Source of the DNA: Clostridiales bacterium
Lineage (GTDB): Bacteria; Bacillota; Clostridia; Caldicoprobacterales; DTU083
DNA: 64,000 bases
NCBI GenBank assembly: GCA_012842605.1
Contig: DUSN01000062.1
Coordinates: 1-64,000, forward strand
Reading direction: 5' to 3'
Of the stretch, positions 7,665 to 60,405 are shown piece after piece. Numbering within the stretch: position 1 is the first letter of the stretch; each line of letters opens with the position of its first letter. The position numbers were made by a program, and so were the translations under genes. The notes under the pieces were generated by a model, which did no database searches, had not been told where the DNA came from, and saw only the letters and a list, made by a program, of their open reading frames with translations.

Positions 7665-8300
7665 TTACTCTGATTCCACTCCAATTAAAAAAGGGTTTGT
7701 TATGCTTTCCAGTTTTAATGTGCTTGGGCTGCCGTGACCGGGATAGATGGGCAGACTGTTATCCAGTACCATCAATTTTTCATTGACGGATTGAATTAAT
7801 TCACTGAAATCTGCCCGGGGAAGATCCGTTCTGCCAATTGAACCCCTGAATAATGTATCGCCGGTAAACAGTATTCCGTCCCCCAGGTAAGACACTCCTC
7901 CCCTGGTATGACCAGGGGTATGAATTACCTTCAGCGATGTTTTCCCTATTTGCAGTATATCTCCGTCTTCCAGAACAAAATCCGGAGGCACCTGAACAGT
8001 TTCTCTGCCAAAATGAGCAGACAAATTCAGCACGGCATCGGTGAGCATACCTTCATCTTCCCGATGAATTGCAACCTGTGCTCCTGTTAATTCCTTAAGC
8101 TCCTTTACAGCACCTATATGATCAAAATGCCCATGAGTCAATAAGATATACATGGGCTGCAGGCTGTTTTTCTTTATCAAATCCATTATTCTTTCAGGAT
8201 TAGCACCAGGGTCAATAATGGCGCAAAGCTTTGTTTCCTCACAGTAATATATATAGCAGTTTACTGACAAGACCCCCACAACTACGGGCAGCATATTCAT
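7665..8300 (-). CDS. Metallo-beta-lactamase fold hydrolase (glyoxalase II-like)
   Basis: This is a 211-residue MBL-fold protein with the zinc-binding THGHFDHIG motif (H56, H58, D60, H61), a later HTPGHTRGG histidine, the FTGDTLF aspartate and the YPGHGS histidine. The family splits thioesters or related substrates, such as S-lactoylglutathione in glyoxalase II; the natural substrate in this organism is not evident. The ATG at 8300 has AAGGGTGG seven bases upstream; an upstream TTG was not chosen. It lies between dtd and hemZ in one run. Confidence 0.88.
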   Translation of the reverse strand: MNMLPVVVGVLSVNCYIYYCEETKLCAIIDPGANPERIMDLIKKNSLQPMYILLTHGHFDHIGAVKELKELTGAQVAIHREDEGMLTDAVLNLSAHFGRETVQVPPDFVLEDGDILQIGKTSLKVIHTPGHTRGGVSYLGDGILFTGDTLFRGSIGRTDLPRADFSELIQSVNEKLMVLDNSLPIYPGHGSPSTLKLESITNPFLIGVESE

Positions 8301-17130: not shown

Positions 17131-18394
<1,264 letters not shown>

Positions 18395-35746: not shown

Positions 35747-35755
35747 AAAGATATC

Positions 35756-35805
35756 GGGGACAGTTCTCAATTATCTGATATCTTAAAAAAATGAGAACTG
35801 TCCCC
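35756..35805. repeat. REP-like inverted pair between sigF and spoVA
   Basis: GGGGACAGTTCTCA (35756-35769) and TGAGAACTGTCCCC (35792-35805) form a perfect 14-bp stem with a 22-nt loop. This is the cleanest complete unit of the family in the window. Confidence 0.9.
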
Positions 35806-35811
35806 GTTAAG

Positions 35812-45911: not shown

Positions 45912-45943
45912 TGGGGACAGTTAATGGGGACAGTTCTCAATTA
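45912..45943. repeat. REP-like repeat pair at the PBP stop codon
   Basis: A truncated head GGGGACAG (45913-45920) is followed 13 bp on by a full GGGGACAGTTCTCAATT (45926-45942). The array begins one base after the PBP stop. Confidence 0.85.
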
Positions 45944-46040: not shown

Positions 46041-46727
46041 TCAGCCCAGTTCTTTCAGCTTTTCTTCTATTTTTTCACGACTAATAGTGCTCAAAGCAGA
46101 TATATTGCATTCCAATGCCTTTTCCAGCATTTCCCTGGCTTTTTCCAATTCTCCCCGCTGTTTATAAATATCCCCAAGATAATACAAAGTAACTGCCTGA
46201 TCTCCCTTTTGCTCATAAGCTTTTTGGAAATATAAAAATGCATTGTCCATATCACCCATGCGATAATAGGTCTGCCCTATATTATCCAACACAACCGGAT
46301 CAGTGTCATCATATTCCAATGCGTTCAGGTTGAATTTCAAAGCTTCTTCATAGTCTCCCTTTTCTATGAGCAAATAACCCAATGTACCGTAAGTTCTGGA
46401 GTTTTTCAGTTTGTTGTGGAGTTCCCTCATTCTTTCTATGGCTGCATCCAGATCACCTAACTTCCAGTAAACAAGGGACAAGTTTATTTTTGCATTGTTT
46501 TTTACACTCTCATTTCTTGGGTAAAACACCAATATTTTGTCAAAGATTGCCCTTGCCTCCTCAAAATAACCTGAGCGCAGCAGCAGAACTCCATGTGCCA
46601 TTCGATAATTAGGATTGGATACATCATTTTTTTCTGCTTTCTTATACCAATCTAAAGCTTTGTCAAGTTTACCTCTGGAATGATTATAATAGCCTAGAAA
46701 GCCATAAATATTACCTTTTAACCCCAT
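46041..46727 (-). CDS. Tetratricopeptide repeat protein
   Basis: This 228-residue soluble protein is made almost wholly of about six TPR units (for example LDKALDWYKKAEKNDVSNPNYRMAHGVLLL and GDYEEALKFNLNALEYDDTDPVVLDNIGQTYY). TPRs bind other proteins. ATG at 46727 has AAAGGAG upstream and overlaps the mrfB end by 10 bp. Co-expression with mrfAB suggests it may be an added partner of that repair pair, which is inference. Confidence 0.9.
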   Translation of the reverse strand: MGLKGNIYGFLGYYNHSRGKLDKALDWYKKAEKNDVSNPNYRMAHGVLLLRSGYFEEARAIFDKILVFYPRNESVKNNAKINLSLVYWKLGDLDAAIERMRELHNKLKNSRTYGTLGYLLIEKGDYEEALKFNLNALEYDDTDPVVLDNIGQTYYRMGDMDNAFLYFQKAYEQKGDQAVTLYYLGDIYKQRGELEKAREMLEKALECNISALSTISREKIEEKLKELG

Positions 46728-48088
46728 TGTTCAATACTCCTTTCAATCTTCTTTAACAGACGTCTTTTTCTTGTAAACAGTTCATCTCTCAGTTTAGATG
46801 AACCGTTATTATAGTCACCGTTGTTCCGAAGCCTGCTCGCCAGCTGTATGGCTCTTTCTGTACACTCAAGTGCTTTTTTATAGTCCTTTTTGCCATGTTC
46901 CAGGTACTTGGCCATCTCAACAAGAGGAAATATCAGCATGCTGCCCTCTTCCCCCGCCAATTCCTCCCACAGATTCATGGCTTCTTCAGGCCCGTCATGC
47001 CTCTTTCTTAAATAAGCAAATCGCTTTTTTGCATCTACCTTAAGTGAATGTATCACAGCAGTATCAATGCAGCATTTATAGCACTCCGAAGCTTCTTGAA
47101 TTCTATGGTTTCTTTCCAGTTCTTTTGCTATACTCAATAACTCATGGGGATTTGCATAGCCAATCGGATTTTTGTACAATTTGCTTATATGTATCAGCAA
47201 AGCAGCCAAAGCCGCAATATCCCATTCGTTATGTTTTATTACCTGCTTCATAGCATCAGTTTTTCTTGTTTCCAGATAATCAAAATAAATCTTTGGTATC
47301 AATTGTCCCGGAATGTCATTTTTCCTTTGCTGTTTAAGAATTTTATCCTCGATAGAAACAAGGGAACAGCTCTCTAAAAAATTTCCCCATAACCGCCTTG
47401 CTACATGCAGCAAATCCAGGTGCGAATCCTCCCAGTACAAAGGCCGGAGCCTGGAATATACAAAACGGCTCTCCAGCAACGGCCAGTCAAAGGCTTTTCC
47501 ATTAAATGTAACAAGTACTCGAAAATTTTTCAGTACATCCAGGACTGCTAATAACATAGGATATTCTTCGTCAAAGTCACGCATCAGATACTGCTCTATC
47601 ACTAACCCGTTGTCCGTAAAATAGCCTATTCCTATTAAGAACGGGTAAGTACCTGTTCCACCCGCCAAGCCGGTAGTTTCAGTATCTAACAACACTATAT
47701 CCTGAATACAAATATCGCGGTCTAATCTTGTCCACCATCTATTATCACTAAAGCTGGATGCCCACAGATCGGACAAATTAACTGAACCATATATTGTACT
47801 CTTACCATATATCGTTCGTTTCCTGATAAATGACCCATATGCTCCTATGATTGCCTGCCCGCCGAAATCCTCCATCCTTTCATTGCAGCCGACTGTTTTT
47901 CTGTCCGTATCAACTTTATTTCCATTGTTTATGGATTTATATATGGGCTCATATGTGTCCAGGCTGCCATCATTTTCCGTGTAAGCAGTTTGTTCATGAA
48001 CAGGCCGCTCTAAATTTCCGGCATCCGGATTATGCAAAGGGGAGTTGGATGACATTGCCTTGAGCTTGTTCTTCAAATTGGGTATCAC
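46718..48088 (-). CDS. mrfB: DEDDh exonuclease with TPR tail, MrfB/YprB family
   Basis: This protein of about 456 residues has an RNase H-like DEDDh exonuclease domain. Catalytic residues lie in VLLDTETTGLAGG, LVTFNGKAFDWPLLESRF and KHNEWDIAALAALL. A helical TPR-like region follows. MrfB in B. subtilis (YprB) acts with helicase MrfA in repair of mitomycin C damage. The start is uncertain: GTG 48088 or TTG 48091 behind GGGAGG. Either overlaps the end of mrfA by about 60 bp. Confidence 0.9.
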   Translation of the reverse strand: MIPNLKNKLKAMSSNSPLHNPDAGNLERPVHEQTAYTENDGSLDTYEPIYKSINNGNKVDTDRKTVGCNERMEDFGGQAIIGAYGSFIRKRTIYGKSTIYGSVNLSDLWASSFSDNRWWTRLDRDICIQDIVLLDTETTGLAGGTGTYPFLIGIGYFTDNGLVIEQYLMRDFDEEYPMLLAVLDVLKNFRVLVTFNGKAFDWPLLESRFVYSRLRPLYWEDSHLDLLHVARRLWGNFLESCSLVSIEDKILKQQRKNDIPGQLIPKIYFDYLETRKTDAMKQVIKHNEWDIAALAALLIHISKLYKNPIGYANPHELLSIAKELERNHRIQEASECYKCCIDTAVIHSLKVDAKKRFAYLRKRHDGPEEAMNLWEELAGEEGSMLIFPLVEMAKYLEHGKKDYKKALECTERAIQLASRLRNNGDYNNGSSKLRDELFTRKRRLLKKIERSIEQWG

Positions 48089-50345
48089 CAAGTATTCCTC
48101 CCAGAATTTTTTGTGCCATATATTTGCCATTAGCTGATACCTCAGCAGCAGGTCCGACACAAGCTGGACAACCACTTTCGCAATAGCAGTTCGATATTAC
48201 CTCATATGCTTTTTTAAACAACTCCAGATGAATCTCATAAAGCCGCTCACTGAAACCAATACCGCCAGGACAGCTGTCATAGATATAGATTGTGGGTTTA
48301 TGAGTAAAAGGAGATTTAACATGATATACAACATGGATATCACGGGGATCACACATCAGGTAAAGCGGTGCTATATGTCCTAAGACATTGGCTATTCCCA
48401 TCAATCCGTTCTGCAAATCATCCTGGCTTTCGATGCCTTTCGGAATATCATTCAATGTCATCCAATAGGCTGTTGTCTGCAGTTCCATTTCCGGTAAACG
48501 AACAGGCCCCCAGCCCAGGTTCTCATGTGTATCAAACTTTATCTTCTTGAACATGGTAACGAGAGATGTTACCATGACATCACCCCAGCTTCTGCCTGTC
48601 TTCCCCTCATCCTTTGTGCTAAATACATCCAAAACCTTTAAAGTAACTGCCAGGTTGGCATCAGTATAATAATCCACATCCACTTTTCTTACATATGCCT
48701 TCTTTTCCTCAAAATCCAGTTTTTCAACCTGATACTGGACACCTTCATGAATGTAAATGGCTTCCTCATGGAGCAGCTGTGGTGCACTGAAGCGATCCAT
48801 TTCACCAATTACCCGGTGCTGTGGAGTGGTTATATCTATAATGATAAAGTTTTCATTGGCAGCTGTACGAAGGCTGACTGAATCAGCCGGAAAATTGTCC
48901 GCTGTCCAGTACCAGCGGCTGCCTACATGCCGCAGCACCTTTTCCTCTTCCAGAAACTCCAGTATTTGATCTAATGAATCAACTCCGAAGGTTTCTCCGT
49001 CTTCAAACGGCAGCTCGAAAGCAGCACATTTGATATGGGACATTAGAATATACAGGTTATTGGGATTGATTAGTCCGTGTTCAGGACTGGATTCAAGGAA
49101 AAATTCAGGATGCTGTATAATATATTGATCCAGCGGATTGCTGCTGGCAACTATCATTGCAAGAGCTGTATCATTTCTGCGCCCTGCCCGGCCGGCCTGC
49201 TGCCATGTGCTTGCTATAGTACCGGGATAACCGCACATTATGCATGCCTGCAGCCTTCCTATGTCAATGCCCAGCTCAAGCGCATTGGTGCTGACTACAC
49301 CTAATATATTGCCTGATCTGAGCCCTTGTTCAATTTCACGCCTCTGGCTTGGCAGATAGCCGCCGCGATATCCTCTGACACTGTTGGATTTGCCCAGCTT
49401 ATCCTGTACCAATTGCTTCAGATAGGTGACCAGAACTTCCACAGTAAGACGGCTTTTGGCAAATAAAATAGTTTGTATTCCATTAAGTATAAAATTGGTG
49501 GCAAGCCTTCTTGTTTCTAAAAGAGAGCTTCTCCTAATGCCTAATTGCTTGTTCACTACAGGTGGATTGTAGAATATCATATGTTTTTTGCCGGACGGAG
49601 CACCGTTTTCATCTATTAGTTCCACTTCCTGCCCAATAATGCGCTCAGTCAGTTCTTTGGGGTTTGCTATAGTTGCTGAGCAGCAGATGAATTGCGGATC
49701 AGATCCATAGAATTTGCAAATACGGTGCAATCGGCGAAGGACATTGGCTAAATGGCTTCCGAATATCCCCCTATAAGAATGAATCTCATCTATTACAACA
49801 AACTTAAGATTCTCAAACAATTTAACCCATTTTGTATGATGAGGCATTATCCCGGAATGAAGCATATCAGGATTGGTAACAACAATATGGCCGGCTTGGC
49901 GGATTGCCTTCCTGGCGCTGACTGGTGTATCTCCATCATATGTATATGTCTTGATAGGATGGCCCAGCAAGTCCATAATTTCATGCAGCTCACTCACCTG
50001 ATCCTGGGACAGCGCTTTTGTTGGGAACAAATACAATGCTCTTGCATCGTCGTTATTCAGTATTTCATTAATAACAGGAAGATTATAACAGAGTGTCTTT
50101 CCTGATGCAGTAGGAGTTACTACAACTATATTTTTTCGCTGGAATACCAATTCAACTGCTTTGGACTGATGTGAGTACAGCTGATGTATGCCTTTCTTTT
50201 TTAGTACTATTTCCAGCTCAGGTCGCAGCCCTTTGGGAAATGAGCCATACACCGCACTCTTGGATTCCATTTCTTTCCAATATGTAATATTTTGCATGAT
50301 TTCCGGGCTGCTGCGTATATGATCTACCAGTTGATCAATATTCAT
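48030..50345 (-). CDS. mrfA: DEAD/DEAH-box helicase MrfA (YprA) with DUF1998 zinc domain
   Basis: This 771-residue superfamily 2 helicase has motif I PTASGKT, motif II DEIH, motif III SATIANP, and motif VI QQAGRAGRR. The C-terminal DUF1998 domain has four clustered Cys in NCYCESGCPACVG, as in MrfA, where they bind zinc. MrfA unwinds DNA 3' to 5' and works with MrfB on mitomycin C lesions. ATG follows AAGGGG. No LexA box was seen in its promoter. Confidence 0.94.
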   Translation of the reverse strand: MNIDQLVDHIRSSPEIMQNITYWKEMESKSAVYGSFPKGLRPELEIVLKKKGIHQLYSHQSKAVELVFQRKNIVVVTPTASGKTLCYNLPVINEILNNDDARALYLFPTKALSQDQVSELHEIMDLLGHPIKTYTYDGDTPVSARKAIRQAGHIVVTNPDMLHSGIMPHHTKWVKLFENLKFVVIDEIHSYRGIFGSHLANVLRRLHRICKFYGSDPQFICCSATIANPKELTERIIGQEVELIDENGAPSGKKHMIFYNPPVVNKQLGIRRSSLLETRRLATNFILNGIQTILFAKSRLTVEVLVTYLKQLVQDKLGKSNSVRGYRGGYLPSQRREIEQGLRSGNILGVVSTNALELGIDIGRLQACIMCGYPGTIASTWQQAGRAGRRNDTALAMIVASSNPLDQYIIQHPEFFLESSPEHGLINPNNLYILMSHIKCAAFELPFEDGETFGVDSLDQILEFLEEEKVLRHVGSRWYWTADNFPADSVSLRTAANENFIIIDITTPQHRVIGEMDRFSAPQLLHEEAIYIHEGVQYQVEKLDFEEKKAYVRKVDVDYYTDANLAVTLKVLDVFSTKDEGKTGRSWGDVMVTSLVTMFKKIKFDTHENLGWGPVRLPEMELQTTAYWMTLNDIPKGIESQDDLQNGLMGIANVLGHIAPLYLMCDPRDIHVVYHVKSPFTHKPTIYIYDSCPGGIGFSERLYEIHLELFKKAYEVISNCYCESGCPACVGPAAEVSANGKYMAQKILGGILGDTQFEEQAQGNVIQLPFA

Positions 50346-50411: not shown

Positions 50412-50450
50412 GGGGACGTTTCTCAATTTTCCTGTGGGGACATTTCTCAG
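50412..50450. repeat. REP-like repeat pair downstream of the RAYT gene
   Basis: GGGGACGTTTCTCAA (50412-50426) and GGGGACATTTCTCAG (50436-50450) in direct orientation, 24 bp apart. They lie between the RAYT terminator and the mrfA promoter. Confidence 0.85.
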
Positions 50451-50506
50451 TTATTACTTAATAAAAACGGCAAACTCATTTTGGGACAGCTAATAAAGTA
50501 ATTACA

Positions 50507-50554
50507 TAAAAAAGAAAGCCAATACTAATCTTTTCACAAAGGATAGCATGGCTT
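50507..50554 (-). terminator. Terminator of the RAYT gene
   Basis: On the minus strand AAGCCATGCTATC pairs imperfectly with GATTAGTATTGGCTT, followed by TCTTTTTTATG. Confidence 0.6.
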
Positions 50555-50624
50555 AAAAAATATGTGCGACTTGGAGATAATGGGGCTTGTTGGGCTTATA
50601 TACTTATAAAAATATAACTTAACA

Positions 50625-50660
50625 CTGCATAAAATACAGTATCTATTATGTATTATGCAG
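50625..50660 (-). repeat. Hairpin over the RAYT stop codon
   Basis: CTGCATAAaaTACA (50625-50638) pairs with TGTATTATGCAG (50649-50660), with a two-base bulge. The TAA stop (50653-50655) lies in one arm. It could be the transposon end recognised by the transposase, or only an mRNA end structure. Confidence 0.5.
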
Positions 50661-51588
50661 CATTTTTCAGAAGTTCACTAAAAATCTGCGAATATAAGGT
50701 GTGTCCGCTATTTATAAGTTCATACCCCCTATCACATAATTGTGAACAACAGGCTATAGTTATAGAAGGTATTATACGACATATTTCTCTATAACTTAAT
50801 CCTGCTAAAACTCTCAGGACATATGCACAGAACGCCCTGTAATTAATCAGTTCCCTTTTAGCCTTCCATGCAATATTTATAATATTATCATGCGCAGAGC
50901 CTGTCAGTTTACTGGATACGTAACTTACCACATTATCGGGTGAAATGCTTCTCAATATTATGCTTCTACCACTGATATATTCATTTTCAGCAGCAGTAGA
51001 AAATTGCTCATCATAATCCTTTAAATTATCTGTTTTATTTTGATACTTGACAAATTCATAGTATTTCTTTATAAAGCTCTCTCCATCAGCATGAAAAAGC
51101 TCCATTATAAAGCTCTTATCTATAATCTTATGGGTGTCTTCCCGTTTGCCTATATAGATTCCATATGAAGAATAGGGATAATCCTCTTCCCTGCCGTTAT
51201 ATTCGGGAATATCCTTAGGATTGTTGTGTATATAAGCAGATACTGCTAAGTTATACCGTTCTGAAGATAATATCCTGCTTTGAAATCTATCCTGGAATAA
51301 ATGCCCGTGCCTATTATATTTTGTATTGTAATATCTAACATAAGCCGTATTCAAACTGTGCATAAATTTCGACACATCAAAACCTTTAGGATCCAGATGA
51401 ATATGAACATGGTTATTCATCAAGCAGTATGCATATACACTAGCTTGGTATTTATCTGTATAACGTTTGAGCAAAGCCAAATAGTAGTCCTTGTCCTCAT
51501 TTTCCCTAAACAGAAGTATTTCTGAGGAACTTCTGCTCATAATGTGATAGATAGCCAGTTCATGCTTTTGCCGTGCTCTTCTGGGCAT
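50653..51588 (-). CDS. REP-associated tyrosine transposase (RAYT, IS200-like Y1)
   Basis: This protein of about 311 residues has the Y1 HUH fold: CLMNNHVHIHL gives the metal-binding HxH (H60, H62). The YVRYYNTKY segment near residues 83-90 holds the candidate catalytic tyrosine, and RHGHLFQDRF is typical of RAYTs. A long C-terminal part has a helix-turn-helix-like LSYREICRIIPSITIACCSQ. RAYTs nick single-stranded REP hairpins. ATG at 51588 has AGGTGG upstream. The gene seems intact, has a LexA box promoter, and is flanked by REP-like repeats on both sides. Confidence 0.9.
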   Translation of the reverse strand: MPRRARQKHELAIYHIMSRSSSEILLFRENEDKDYYLALLKRYTDKYQASVYAYCLMNNHVHIHLDPKGFDVSKFMHSLNTAYVRYYNTKYNRHGHLFQDRFQSRILSSERYNLAVSAYIHNNPKDIPEYNGREEDYPYSSYGIYIGKREDTHKIIDKSFIMELFHADGESFIKKYYEFVKYQNKTDNLKDYDEQFSTAAENEYISGRSIILRSISPDNVVSYVSSKLTGSAHDNIINIAWKAKRELINYRAFCAYVLRVLAGLSYREICRIIPSITIACCSQLCDRGYELINSGHTLYSQIFSELLKNAA

Positions 51589-51646
51589 AACAATAACCAC
51601 CTATCAAAGGTAATTAACTAAAGGATAGATTTATAAGTTTAATTAT

Positions 51647-51676
51647 ATTTTACCATAGAACACATGTTCGTGTAAA
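51647..51676 (-). promoter_or_regulatory. RAYT promoter with LexA/DinR box
   Basis: TTTACA (51676-51671), 18 bp, TAAAAT (51652-51647) on the minus strand. GAACACATGTTC (51658-51669) fits the Firmicute SOS box GAAC-N4-GTTC and fills the spacer. Twenty-two of 23 positions match the dinB promoter block. Confidence 0.78.
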
Positions 51677-51787
51677 GCGTTAATAAATTTTTTTCTTAAA
51701 ATTTTTGATAGTATTGTTTATGAAATAATTATAACTTAGTCATATTCTGGTACATGATAAAAAGGAATTGATATTGGGAAAAACAAA

Positions 51788-51837
51788 GGGACATTTCACA
51801 ATAATATTAGTAAGTAATAAAATTGAGAACTGTCCCC
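51788..51837. repeat. REP-like inverted pair between lpd and the RAYT gene
   Basis: GGGACATTTCACAA (51788-51801) and ATTGAGAACTGTCCCC (51822-51837) pair over 13 of 15 positions with a 20-nt loop. The array ends six bases from the lpd stop codon. Confidence 0.85.
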
Positions 51838-51843
51838 ATTATT

Positions 51844-53238
51844 TTATATATGGATAGCCCAGCCTTCTACTGTGCGCATGGATTCCATTACCGCTTCTGA
51901 TATAGTAGGATGAGCATGTATCATGTTGGCTATATCCTCCGGCAGCAACTCAGCTGTCTTTGCCAGCAGTATTTCATGAATAATCTCTGTTGCATCAGCA
52001 CCAATGCAATGGGCTCCTAAAATTTCTTTTGTGTTAGGATCATACAGTACCTTTACCATTCCGTCAGGCTGTTCTACGGCAACAGACTTACCAGCTCCTC
52101 TGTATGGAAAGCTTGCTTTTTTATATTCTACAGAATCCTGCTTTGCCCGCCATTCAGAATATCCGAAGCTTGCTACCTGAGGATCACAATAAACAGCACT
52201 TGGAATACTCATTGGATCAATTCTCTTCGGAGGATTCAACCCCGCTATATGCTCAACTGCAATTTCTCCTTCCTTTGACGCTACATGAGCCAATAAAGGA
52301 GTATTGATAACATCTCCTATTGCATAAATGCCGGGTACATTTGTCTCATAGTAGTCTCCAACCTGGATAAAGCCTTTATCTGTTAGCACCCCTACCGATT
52401 CCAGCCCAAGCCCCGAGGAGTTGGGTACCCTTCCAACAGCAACAAGAATCTGATTTACTGAAATTGTTTTATGTTTCTCATTATTGTCTGCCAAAACTAC
52501 AGAAACATGGTCTTCTAATTTTTCCATTGATAAGGCCTTGGTTTTCGTCATTACCTCTATTCCTCTGGCTCTAAATATCCTGGCTAAATAATTAGATATT
52601 TCCTCATCCTCAAGGGGCAAAATTCGATCCATTAACTCCACCAAAATTACTTTTACTCCGAAAGAATTCATTATATATGCAAACTCGACACCAATTGCTC
52701 CGCCGCCTATTATCAGTATCCTTTCCGGAAGTCTCTCCAGCATTAACGCACCTGTAGATGAAAGCACATATTTTTCATCAAAAGGAAACCCCGGGACTTC
52801 CCTTGGTCTTGAACCTGTAGCAATAATGATATTCTTGCCTGTAACTTTCCTGCCCGATGAAAGGTTTACCTCATTCTTACCAATAATTGTTCCTGTACCT
52901 TCAAACAAATCTACTTTATTTTTCTTCAGCAGATAACTTACTCCCTTAGACAGTGTATCCGCTGCTTTTCTTGACTTTTTAAAAACTTTTCCATAATCGA
53001 ATCCTTTACGATCTATTGATATGCCCAGTTCTTCCATAGCAGACAAACTGCGATACAGCTCTGCCTGGTGAATCAGTGCTTTAGAAGGGATACAGCCTAC
53101 ATTAAGGCATACGCCGCCCACCTTTTCCTTCTCTATTATGGCAGCCCTTAACCCCAGCTGGGATGCACGGATAGCAGCCACATAACCCCCCGGTCCGCCT
53201 CCGATTATAACAACATCATACTCATATGATTGGTTCAT
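51844..53238 (-). CDS. lpdA: Dihydrolipoyl dehydrogenase (E3)
   Basis: This 464-residue FAD enzyme reoxidises dihydrolipoamide with NAD. It has FAD motif VVIIGGGPGGYVAAIRA, redox cysteines in GGVCLNVGCIPSKA, the NAD motif LIIGGGAIGVEFA, and C-terminal HAHPTISE with the catalytic His-Glu. It has no lipoyl domain of its own. ATG at 53238 is set by GGAGGGGG; GTG at 53268 has no such site. It is the last gene of pdhABC-lpd. Confidence 0.97.
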   Translation of the reverse strand: MNQSYEYDVVIIGGGPGGYVAAIRASQLGLRAAIIEKEKVGGVCLNVGCIPSKALIHQAELYRSLSAMEELGISIDRKGFDYGKVFKKSRKAADTLSKGVSYLLKKNKVDLFEGTGTIIGKNEVNLSSGRKVTGKNIIIATGSRPREVPGFPFDEKYVLSSTGALMLERLPERILIIGGGAIGVEFAYIMNSFGVKVILVELMDRILPLEDEEISNYLARIFRARGIEVMTKTKALSMEKLEDHVSVVLADNNEKHKTISVNQILVAVGRVPNSSGLGLESVGVLTDKGFIQVGDYYETNVPGIYAIGDVINTPLLAHVASKEGEIAVEHIAGLNPPKRIDPMSIPSAVYCDPQVASFGYSEWRAKQDSVEYKKASFPYRGAGKSVAVEQPDGMVKVLYDPNTKEILGAHCIGADATEIIHEILLAKTAELLPEDIANMIHAHPTISEAVMESMRTVEGWAIHI

Positions 53239-53295
53239 ATTTCCCCCTCCAAATTGGCTCAAGTACACTTTTTCATAAGAATAATGTTACTTATG

Positions 53296-54636
53296 TCAGA
53301 ACAACGCACGAATCGGATCCTCAATAATATCTTTCAAATCTTTAAGGAAGGCTGCTCCTGCTGCTCCGTCAATTACCCTGTGGTCACATGAAAGAGTCAT
53401 CTTCATTTGTGTTTGAATTGTAATATTATCGTCCTGATCAACTGCCGGAACCTTTTTCATTTCTCCGACAGCTAAAATAGCTGAACCCGGCGGATTAATT
53501 ACAGCAGTAAACTCTTCAATCCCAAATGAGCCAAGGTTGCTTATAGTAAATCCTGCATTCTGATATTCATCGGGAGCCAATTTATTGTTTCTGGCCTTTT
53601 CTATCAATACCAGAAGTTCCTTATTAATTGCAATTACGCCTTTATTTCCGCAATCACGGACAACAGGAGTTATCAACCCGTCAGGCTGTGCAACAGCCAA
53701 CCCAATGTCAACTTGTTTTCTTTGAATAATTGTATCTCCATTCCAGGTTGCATTCACCATAGGATGCTTTTTGAGTGCTTCAGCAGCATACTTAATAAAA
53801 AATGCATTAAAGGAAACTTTTTCCTGCAGGGATTCATTTAATCTCTTTCTGGTTTGAATAAGATTGTCTACATTTACAGAGACAGTCAGATAATAATGAG
53901 GTGCGCTGAATTTGGACTCCGACAGACGCTGAGCAATAATTTTTCTCTTTTGCGATACCGGAATCTCAATATCACCGACAGCTGCGACAACAGCTTGTAC
54001 CGGCGTTGAAATCTTAAAGGCTTGCTGTTCTTTCCCTTGCTGAATCTCAATTTTCTGTGCTTCAGTCACATTATATCCTTTAGCCATACTGCTTATTTCA
54101 GTCACATTGCTCTTATCAAGTTTATCCTTCATGTATCTTTCTATATCGGCTTTAACTATGCGGCCAGCCGGACCGCTTCCATTAATATCGCTTAAATCAA
54201 TTTTATTCATTTCTGCTATTCTACGTGCTAAAGGCGATGCTTTAATACGAGTATCACCATATGCTTTTATTGATTCATTTTTTATATATATTTGAGAACT
54301 GTCCCCAAAGTCATTTTTGCTTAATTCTTGAGAACTGTCCCCACCATCGATTTTTTGAGAACTGTCCCCATCATCAAGTATTTGAGAAATGTCCCCGAGG
54401 TTGTCGCCAATGATGGCAATGACCTCACCTACTGCTGCTTTTTCACCTTCCTGGACCAGAATTTTAAGCAAAATTCCTTCTGCAGTGGATTCATAGTCCA
54501 TTGTAGCCTTATCGGTTTCTACTTCACACAATATATCACCGGCCTCAACCCGGTCTCCTTCTTTTTTATGCCACCTAGCCAAAATTCCTTCTTCCATGGT
54601 AGGTGACAAGGCAGTCATAAAAACTTTTTCAGCCAT
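53296..54636 (-). CDS. pdhC: Pyruvate dehydrogenase E2, dihydrolipoamide acetyltransferase
   Basis: This 446-residue E2 has one lipoyl domain (residues 1-80, lysine in EVETDKATMDYES), then a linker (about 80-120), a peripheral subunit-binding domain (KASPLARRIAEMNKIDLSDINGSGPAGRIVKADIERYM), and a catalytic core ending in DHRVIDGAAGAAF with the active-site His. The first linker holds four copies of G-D-(S/I)-S-Q, each encoded by an in-frame REP-like repeat. ATG follows AGGGGG. Confidence 0.96.
   Translation of the reverse strand: MAEKVFMTALSPTMEEGILARWHKKEGDRVEAGDILCEVETDKATMDYESTAEGILLKILVQEGEKAAVGEVIAIIGDNLGDISQILDDGDSSQKIDGGDSSQELSKNDFGDSSQIYIKNESIKAYGDTRIKASPLARRIAEMNKIDLSDINGSGPAGRIVKADIERYMKDKLDKSNVTEISSMAKGYNVTEAQKIEIQQGKEQQAFKISTPVQAVVAAVGDIEIPVSQKRKIIAQRLSESKFSAPHYYLTVSVNVDNLIQTRKRLNESLQEKVSFNAFFIKYAAEALKKHPMVNATWNGDTIIQRKQVDIGLAVAQPDGLITPVVRDCGNKGVIAINKELLVLIEKARNNKLAPDEYQNAGFTISNLGSFGIEEFTAVINPPGSAILAVGEMKKVPAVDQDDNITIQTQMKMTLSCDHRVIDGAAGAAFLKDLKDIIEDPIRALF
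54291..54396. repeat. Four in-frame REP-like repeats inside pdhC
   Basis: TTGAGAACTGTCCCC or the variant TTGAGAAATGTCCCC starts at 54292, 54328, 54355 and 54382. Spacings are 36, 27 and 27 bp, all multiples of three. All copies have the same orientation and encode GDSSQ or GDISQ in the E2 linker. Confidence 0.95.
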
Positions 54637-57250: not shown

Positions 57251-57290
57251 AGTCCCCGGGGACTTTCCCCGGGGACAGTTCTCAATTTTT
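57251..57290. repeat. REP-like repeat with head-to-head palindrome
   Basis: AGTCCCCGGGGACT (57251-57264) is a perfect palindrome of two repeat heads. It is followed by TTCCCC and a full GGGGACAGTTCTCAA (57271-57285). The rest of the 57175-57578 gap is AT-rich, with a possible extended -10 TGATATAAT at 57476-57484 for the Sel1 gene. Confidence 0.8.
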
Positions 57291-57578: not shown

Positions 57579-58103
57579 ATGGAGGAAAATAAGCTTGAAG
57601 CTTTTTGGGATGGTGCAGTCCGTGGAGATGCAGAGGCACAGTTTCAAATGGCTATGAAGTATATCTATGGTGATGGCGTTGATGAAGATAATGAAAAAGC
57701 AGTTGAATTGCTGCATAAAGCATCTATGCAAGGTCATATCGAAGCGCAGTATAATTTAGGAGTTTGTTATCATTATGGCTATGGCACTAAAGTAGATTAC
57801 AAGATAGCATTTGAACTGTACAAGAAGTCTGCTTTACAAGGTTATGCTAAAGGGAAATGTCTTGTTGGTTTCTTTTATTTTCATGGATTATATGTAAAAC
57901 AAGATTATGCTGAGGCTATAAAGTGGTTTTTAGAAGCCGAAGAACAGAATGATGCTGCAGCCGAATATTGGCTGGGAGTCTGCTATGCCAATGGGTATGG
58001 TGTTACTCAAAATAAAGCAGAGGCAATTAAGTGGTATCAAAAATCTGCTTCTCAAGGATATCCATATGCTCAAAAAGCATTAGAAGATATTTTAAGAATG
58101 TAA
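57579..58103 (+). CDS. Sel1-like repeat protein
   Basis: This 174-residue soluble protein has four Sel1-type repeats of 36 residues (for example AEAQFQMAMKYIYGDGVDEDNEKAVELLHKAS and AAAEYWLGVCYANGYGVTQNKAEAIKWYQKSA). No signal peptide is seen, so it is cytoplasmic. Such solenoids bind partner proteins; the partner is unknown. ATG follows AAGGGGG. It stands alone, with its own terminator. Confidence 0.93.
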   Translation: MEENKLEAFWDGAVRGDAEAQFQMAMKYIYGDGVDEDNEKAVELLHKASMQGHIEAQYNLGVCYHYGYGTKVDYKIAFELYKKSALQGYAKGKCLVGFFYFHGLYVKQDYAEAIKWFLEAEEQNDAAAEYWLGVCYANGYGVTQNKAEAIKWYQKSASQGYPYAQKALEDILRM

Positions 58104-59095: not shown

Positions 59096-60355
59096 CTACA
59101 AAATACTGGTCATAACCGGGTAGGAAGCGTCATCGCTCAGTCCGCCCTCCAATGGGGCAAGGCCGCTCCAGAGAAAGTTGGAGCGAAAAATGGAACCAGG
59201 ACCGAATTTCATTCGTATCTGATCTACCGCCCGGTCTACCTTCTTCTGCTTTTCCCAATCCCTTTCAAACATGGAAAGCTGGACATTACTGGCCGGAGAC
59301 AAATCACTGACTCGTACGCCAAGATGACGAATGGGTTCTCCTTTCCAGGCCTCATCAAATAATTGCTTGCAATACCCGTAAATGGCAGTGGTGCTGTCAA
59401 TGGGTGACTGGATTTTCAGTTGATGGCTGTATAATGTCAGATCCTCTGCCCTCTTGATGGAAACTGAAATCACCCGGCAGCACAGGCCTTCAAAGCGCAG
59501 GCGCATGCCAACTGTTTCTACCAGGGACAGTAGAACCTGGTACGCTGTTTCTTTGTCCTCCACATCAAAATGAATGGTCGTAGAATTTCCCATCCCTTTT
59601 ATTACTTCCCTTGACGAGAGAGAAACCGGAGAGTCCTCAATTCCGTTGGCATAATTCCAAATAAGCTCTCCCCAGCTTTTGAACTTATATTTCAGCAACT
59701 CCGGATCACAATTGGCAAGGCTGCCAATGGTATCAATGCCCATTTTACGCAGCTTATACGATGTGGCACGCCCAACCATATACAGTTCCTCCACAGGCAG
59801 GGGCCACATCTTTTCAGGAATTTCCGGGGGGAATAATGTGGAAACCGCATCCGGCTTTTTGAGATCCGAAGCCATCTTGGCCAGCAGCTTATTGGTGCTG
59901 ATTCCTATGCTGACGGTAAAACCCAGCTCTTTCTTAATACACTCCCTAACCTTGTTGGCCGCTTCTATTGATTGACTTTCTTCGATAATCCCGGACATGT
60001 CCATGAAGCATTCGTCTATGCTGAAAACCTGTACCTTGTCAGTAAAACTTTTCAGCAATTCTACCAAAGAATGATGGCAGCACATGTAAAGGGCATAATT
60101 GGGCGGAATAGTGACAAGATGAGGGCATTTCCGTTTTGCCTCCCAAACGGCCTCACCTGTTTTTACTCCGTATTTTTTGGTGGGAGCGCTTTTAGCTAAA
60201 ATAATCCCGTGTCTTGTAGCCTGGGAACCAGCCACCGCAGAAGGGATGTCCCGCAAATCCACCTTCGCCCCGTGCTGAAGCCGATAAACCGCTTCAAATG
60301 ACAAAAAAGCTGAGTTGACATCCACATGAAAAATAAGTTTTTCTTCGTTATTCAT
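59096..60355 (-). CDS. dinB: DNA polymerase IV-type Y-family polymerase
   Basis: This Y-family translesion polymerase of about 419 residues has catalytic carboxylates in FHVDVNSAFLSFEA and VFSIDECFMDMSG. The little-finger domain lies at the C-terminus. The IGISTNKLLAKMASDLKKPDA block is typical of the family. No clear beta-clamp motif is evident, but QLSMF near the end (residues 370-375) is a good clamp-binding candidate. ATG at 60355 is preferred; 60364 is possible. A LexA box lies in the promoter. Confidence 0.94.
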   Translation of the reverse strand: MNNEEKLIFHVDVNSAFLSFEAVYRLQHGAKVDLRDIPSAVAGSQATRHGIILAKSAPTKKYGVKTGEAVWEAKRKCPHLVTIPPNYALYMCCHHSLVELLKSFTDKVQVFSIDECFMDMSGIIEESQSIEAANKVRECIKKELGFTVSIGISTNKLLAKMASDLKKPDAVSTLFPPEIPEKMWPLPVEELYMVGRATSYKLRKMGIDTIGSLANCDPELLKYKFKSWGELIWNYANGIEDSPVSLSSREVIKGMGNSTTIHFDVEDKETAYQVLLSLVETVGMRLRFEGLCCRVISVSIKRAEDLTLYSHQLKIQSPIDSTTAIYGYCKQLFDEAWKGEPIRHLGVRVSDLSPASNVQLSMFERDWEKQKKVDRAVDQIRMKFGPGSIFRSNFLWSGLAPLEGGLSDDASYPVMTSIL

Positions 60356-60375
60356 ATCCTGCATCACCTATATAT

Positions 60376-60405
60376 ATTGTATTATAGAACATATGTTCGT
60401 GTAAA
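60376..60405 (-). promoter_or_regulatory. dinB promoter with LexA/DinR box
   Basis: TTTACA (60405-60400), 18 bp, TACAAT (60381-60376) on the minus strand, with GAACATATGTTC (60387-60398) in the spacer. It is a perfect GAAC-N4-GTTC SOS box. Confidence 0.85.

Follow-up and report, generated by a model that had tools for sequence, protein, structure and literature searches.

A TIRYT transposase with a predicted SOS promoter and a clustered cognate repeat family in Clostridia

Introduction

RAYT-type transposases are widespread, and why bacterial genomes retain such enzymes together with their repeats is still an open question. The question is raised here by a 64-kb stretch of a clostridial genome (the window), in which a Y1/HUH transposase gene lies among copies of a short repeat. 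The genome, G000, is a 3.28 Mb MAG of 132 contigs, and the window belongs to a contig of 97.5 kb. An earlier note had read this locus as a RAYT gene with a REP-like repeat family. We ask whether gene and repeat belong together, what kind of element they form, and how they may be kept.

Results

The transposase

The gene had been described as intact, and it is: the reading frame is unbroken (Table 1; a GTG at 51600 is also a possible start) and the product matches Pfam Y1_Tnp at 3e-14. The HUH motif is NHVHIH (H60, H62) and the catalytic Y119 lies within AYIHNNP; all three residues were invariant in the 14 relatives compared. Against the NCBIfam REP-transposase model the protein scored 43 bits, under the cut-off of 80. 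A PDB search with its sequence gave no match, but a fold search with its predicted model (pLDDT 79) did, the best being 4ER8 (the E. coli RAYT), followed by the IS608 and ISDra2 transposases. In the same type of search the C-terminus of the model resembled DnaA domain IV (1J1V; target TM 0.82, rmsd 2.0), and Pfam Bac_DnaA_C matched 7 of the 14 relatives (best 1.3e-8) and the window protein weakly (0.17). The C-terminal domain is thus, as modelled, a DnaA-domain-IV-like HTH.

G000 has three Y1 transposase genes, the other two being 35-36% identical to this one over the N-terminal part; multiple near-identical copies, as for an IS200/IS605 insertion sequence, were not found in this genome. The two further genes, on contigs C48 and C38, have GGGGAC-headed flanking repeats of their own, with differing tails (GACAAGGGGACGGTTCTTTTGTC; GGGGACGGRGGTTT); the sites noted are L026 about 10282-10317 on C48 and L027 709-773, 1674-1691 and 3826-3858 on C38.

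Table 1. Transposase gene, repeat sites and neighbouring genes in the window
Feature	Position	Strand	Evidence or remark
Y1/HUH transposase (TIRYT/RAYT)	50653..51588	-	intact ORF; 311 aa from ATG 51588
5' flanking repeat (TIR), exact GGGGACAGTTCTCAA	51823..51837	-	only exact copy beside transposase gene
Degenerate inverted partner AGGGACATTTCACAA, 2 mismatches	51787..51801	+	pattern match
3' flanking direct pair	50412..50450	+	50412 = GGGGACGTTTCTCAA, 50436 = GGGGACATTTCTCAG, 1 mismatch each
Four-copy cluster, order ++--, between queA and tgt	18266..18393	.	pattern match
Convergent pair (REPIN-like hairpin) beside sigF	35756..35805	.	pattern match, folding
Single repeat 3' of PBP1A gene	45926..45940	+	pattern match
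Four in-frame repeats in pdhC linker: GDISQ + three GDSSQ	54292..54396	-	pattern match, translation
Single repeat between PPOX-type flavoprotein gene and Sel1-repeat gene (57579-58103)	57271..57285	+	pattern match
Predicted SOS promoter: -35 TTTACA, LexA box CGAACATGTGTTC (51658-51670), -10 TAAAAT	51647..51676	-	conserved in orthologs
mrfA-type DNA repair helicase, fixed transposase neighbour	48030..50345	-	PF09369 MrfA Zn-binding, RNase_H_2; synteny, five genera
mrfB-like exonuclease, next to mrfA	46718-48130		
lpdA, other fixed transposase neighbour	51844..53268	-	synteny

The repeat family

The dispersed 15-mer family is real. In the window GGGGACAKTTCTCAA has 16 matches with 0-2 mismatches, whereas dinucleotide shuffles average 0.23 and none of 100 exceeds 2; genome-wide, G000 holds 20 copies at no more than 1 mismatch and none of the reversed pattern. 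Repeats do flank the transposase gene on both sides, as the earlier note had it, but only one of these copies is exact and the inverted partner begins at 51787. All five further loci it had named, at queA-tgt, sigF, a PBP gene, pdhC and a flavin protein gene, do carry repeats, and the tgt, queA, sigF and PBP1A identities were upheld by HMM. The intergenic spaces beside sigF and after PBP1A also hold repeats in G002 and G003, and the 3' TIR, AATGTCYATGT-GGGGAC, is kept across orthologs.

The consensus of 103 copies outside long ORFs is GGGGACAGTTCTCAATTWTT, with core variation mainly at positions 7 and 8. Neighbouring repeats at most 300 bp apart are either direct or convergent with heads outward; we counted 14 heads-outward junctions and no heads-inward junction. 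The convergent pair at 35752-35809 folds into a hairpin of -17.1 kcal/mol (z -8.8), and the partner at 51787 folds with the copy at 51837 at -10.5 kcal/mol (z -4.8), whereas a lone 15-mer reaches about -0.9 kcal/mol, inside the shuffle range. Because of this heads-outward order, and because pairs fold strongly and singles weakly, the repeat unit looks like a REPIN, or like a mini-element bounded by terminal inverted repeats. That a lone repeat is recognised as a hairpin (GGGGA-CAG-TTCTC, with two G.T wobbles and the variable positions 7 and 8 in the loop) was considered and rejected since it folds no better than shuffles, leaving hairpin recognition in the style of the E. coli RAYT unsupported for single copies. 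A match in the FtsH gene of G003 (L084:13392, 2 mismatches) was set aside, by eye, as a chance match within a conserved FtsH motif. In another genome, G403, three contigs (C125, C134, C135) carry regular tandem arrays of repeats with periods of 26, 27 or 29 bp.

Classification

In canonical RAYT/REP systems each repeat has a GT[AG]G foot preceding a stable hairpin; no such arrangement was found here, where the head is GGGGAC. The earlier note took this head as a sign of a distinct specificity, a suggestion overtaken by the literature, since the consensus head GGGGWSAS is the published hallmark of TIRYTs (PMC3733652, PMC6006769). The element is a TIRtron with a TIRYT-type transposase (probably of Quentin subclass 2.1; Bertels group 1) and not a GTAG-type RAYT; Quentin et al. 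2018 (PMC6006769) regard subclass 2.1 as the probable counterpart of the TIRYT group described by Di Nocera et al. 2013. As in the TIRtrons of PMC3733652, a Y1 transposase is flanked by inverted GGGGWSAS-type repeats, and the TIR is moderately abundant and dispersed, in dimers and clusters. Like TnpAY1 proteins of subclass 2.1 (PMC6006769), the transposase has NHVH, FQ for W, Y-x3-NP and a long C-terminus with Bac_DnaA_C similarity; its Y motif is YIHNNP where the subclass has Y[IV]HLNP/YIELNP.

Co-occurrence of repeat and transposase

The pairing proposed in the earlier note stands, although RAYT/REP applies only in the broad sense, the element being a TIRYT whose cognate repeat tracks the transposase. 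The order was covered by 30 genomes. Each of the five that have an ortholog carries the repeat (11-21 exact GGGGACAGTTCTCAA each, the other four orthologs being 68-73% identical), and only 1 of the 25 lacking an ortholog does; this one is a 71%-complete MAG from the same genus as a carrier. The repeat is therefore not equally abundant in relatives without the gene, 24 of 25 being free of it. Across 391 genomes of the class it was found in 8 of 22 with a close RAYT homolog and in none of the 369 others (Fisher p 2.5e-11). The reversed control pattern was absent across the order and gave one copy in one of the 391 genomes of the class. Most genomes compared are MAGs.

Named relatives of the transposase tell the same story at their flanks: of 78, 54 have GGGGAC facing the gene on its upstream side and 49 on its downstream side, against a background of 12% per side, and variation in the repeat tail follows the distance between the proteins (Mantel r 0.34, p 0.0005, n 68). 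These comparative data give strong support to the pairing of a transposase with a dispersed cognate repeat.

Vertical descent and loss

In five genera the transposase locus lies between the mrfA/mrfB repair genes and lpdA, and by this synteny the gene, which is single-copy, is vertically inherited. The sister genomes G001 and G002 group at full support, and G001 has neither the transposase gene nor any exact repeat copy but retains the promoter with its LexA box. The five-genus distribution and this promoter remnant point to gene loss in G001. In G001 (L133, about 8000-8188) it is now mrfA that directly follows the LexA-type promoter, as though the repair operon had taken it over.

The LexA-type promoter

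A CGAACRNRYGTTCG-type LexA box, of the kind found in the LexA/SOS regulon, overlaps the transposase promoter. In all five orthologs a TTTACM -35 is followed by CRAACANRTGTTC and then by a -10 element, with both box and position conserved, and the same pattern occurs upstream of lexA itself in G000, G001, G002, G003 and G004. A box scoring at least 12/14 within 250 bp upstream was found for 19 of 78 relatives against a background of 1.2%, the relatives not being independent of one another. In a cultured relative, Anaerobacterium chartisolvens DSM 27016, the boxes (L205, L219) are weak. Genome-wide, the pattern gave 6 hits in G000 against 4 for a reversed control, and the SOS case rests for this reason on position and conservation. 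On these grounds the transposase gene appears to be DNA-damage-inducible via LexA. We considered whether the box was originally an element of mrfAB, and judge this less likely because it is enclosed by the TIRs and is also found with RAYT relatives elsewhere, at loci unrelated to this one. Elsewhere in the window, a DinB-type Y-family polymerase gene (59096-60364) has a LexA-type box just upstream (60387-60399). Our literature search found no paper linking RAYT and LexA, and switching by DNA damage was unreported there for this enzyme class.

Repeats inside protein genes

The pdhC (PDH E2) linker has three or four GDSSQ-type units in each of the five carriers, but no such unit in five non-carriers. 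Single lineages also have in-frame copies in AroA, an L,D-transpeptidase, a P-type ATPase and an old-yellow-enzyme relative. In htrA, the codons of a native LGDSSQL are the exact GGGGACAGTTCTCAA in G002, G003, G004, G012 and G011 (L139, L140, L143, L144, L154); G000 and G001 use other synonymous codons for the peptide, and G005 codes GDSSK. This agreement at synonymous positions was confined to genomes that bear the repeat. Among four carriers the same codon is used at 47 of 242 conserved htrA residues, and no stretch of such codons other than the 15-mer exceeds two. The site may have been converted to the repeat, or the repeat there may be under constraint. Synonymous sites flanking the htrA 15-mer are saturated. 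We also observed a 2-hydroxyglutaryl-CoA dehydratase-activator-like gene with KGENCP-type peptides from opposite-strand repeats (L291 771-1670 in G405; L283 13826-14776 in G402).

Clustering around the transposase gene

Seventeen of the 20 G000 copies lie on the window's contig, and seven of the nine clusters that do not flank the gene share its contig (p 7e-10). G402 (UBA3934) serves as the best control, its two transposases having repeats with differing tails: copies on the contig of the first are 20/20 CAC and those on the contig of the second 9/9 CAA, and all 29 CAC copies are confined to three short contigs. A contaminating contig as the source of the clustering was ruled out by the same gene order and repeats in sister genomes and by the two separate G402 clusters. 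In Pseudomonas SBW25 one repeat cluster beside each RAYT had been noted (PMC3116915); our literature search found no report of repeats concentrated over tens of kb around a RAYT-type gene.

We suggest that local placement of new copies may be the cause of this clustering. A possible objection is that it reflects inheritance only, old nearby copies having been kept by vertical descent with no preference for insertion close by. The clustering is indeed partly inherited, because several sites (beside sigF, after PBP1A, in pdhC, and flanking the RAYT gene) are common to several genera. Inheritance alone sits poorly, however, with the two G402 families at two genes, which are unmixed between the RAYT contigs (20:0 against 0:9), with G300, whose only 3 copies are all within 14 kb of its gene, and with the further G000 clusters near the gene at 57271, 64785 and 68159, although the orthologous sites were established as empty for fewer than all of these. 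As a full account of the clustering we hold it to be rather unlikely.

Discussion

The gene, the repeat family, their co-occurrence, the orientation rule and the clustering are directly established. To connect them we propose, as the probable reading, an SOS-released TIRtron, in which a single-copy, vertically inherited TIRYT maintains a small non-autonomous family of its cognate repeat GGGGACAGTTCTCAATTWTT. LexA would repress the transposase gene and DNA damage would release it; the DnaA-domain-IV-like C-terminus would read the 15-mer; the HUH/Tyr core would nick and rejoin single-stranded DNA at the GGGG end; and new copies or heads-outward pairs would land for the most part close to the donor, either between genes or in-frame in linker-coding sequence.

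Alternatively, the host may have domesticated the transposase fully, as a factor in SOS repair next to mrfAB for instance, and the repeats would be relics. Its single copy at one locus across five genera, its LexA-type promoter and its MrfA/MrfB neighbours would all suit such a role, but copies specific to a lineage, 15-mers that are identical in diverged genomes, and expanding tandem arrays suggest ongoing activity or constraint, and we consider full domestication unlikely. A more radical version of local spread, an SOS-induced sequence writer whose DnaA-like domain would target double-stranded 15-mers and whose HUH core would copy the repeat nearby, replacing near-matches exactly, seems to us decidedly doubtful. 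We consider it very improbable that the clade simply uses these repeats as regulatory or structural DNA (terminators, protein-binding boxes) and that the transposase is a bystander, for while convergent pairs form strong hairpins and many copies are intergenic, the repeat co-occurs tightly with the gene, matching variants flank the gene in orthologs and distant relatives, the gene-less sister G001 has no exact copies, and there are in-frame coding arrays.

The SOS-released TIRtron that we favour can be set beside known systems. Pseudomonas REPIN-RAYT and E. coli TnpAREP (PMC3116915, PMC8049555) likewise combine a single-copy, vertically inherited HUH transposase with paired inverted repeats; the present element, in contrast, has no GTAG foot and no stable single-copy hairpin, its repeats number in the tens rather than the hundreds, and it adds a DnaA-IV-like domain and a LexA-type promoter. 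HUH-type transposition is also tied to SOS or DNA damage in the LexA-controlled ISCR transposases (PMC13393415) and in irradiation-induced ISDra2 (PMC2806898), but these are true insertion sequences or rolling-circle elements and not RAYT/TIRYT. Compared with the TIRYT/TIRtron account in the available text of PMC3733652, we find only here the LexA-type promoter, the concentration over tens of kb, the strict heads-outward order, the in-frame TIR copies and the class-wide co-occurrence.

The conserved LexA-type promoter, the sites shared across genera and the loss in one lineage are likewise directly established, and the earlier note had missed the promoter, the clustering, the invariant order of orientation and the majority of the in-frame copies in coding sequence. 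By sequence comparison and our literature search, several features appear to be new: a LexA box that lies within the promoter in each of the five orthologs and upstream of the gene in 19 of 78 relatives; copies concentrated at their own transposase gene, with two G402 families each at its own; REPIN-like clusters with heads outward; in-frame genic copies (GDSSQ in PDH E2, AroA) together with the synonymous-position match in htrA; and a sister genome that has lost gene and exact copies yet keeps the LexA promoter.

For this family of transposases the findings mean, first, that subclass 2.1, reported without REP-like sequences nearby (PMC6006769), can have a true cognate repeat family, here a clear and dispersed one. 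Second, they provide clear examples of in-frame repeats within enzymes. Third, the LexA-type promoter and the clustering at the element's own gene make two ideas testable: that the enzyme is active during DNA damage, and that repeats spread locally from their donor.
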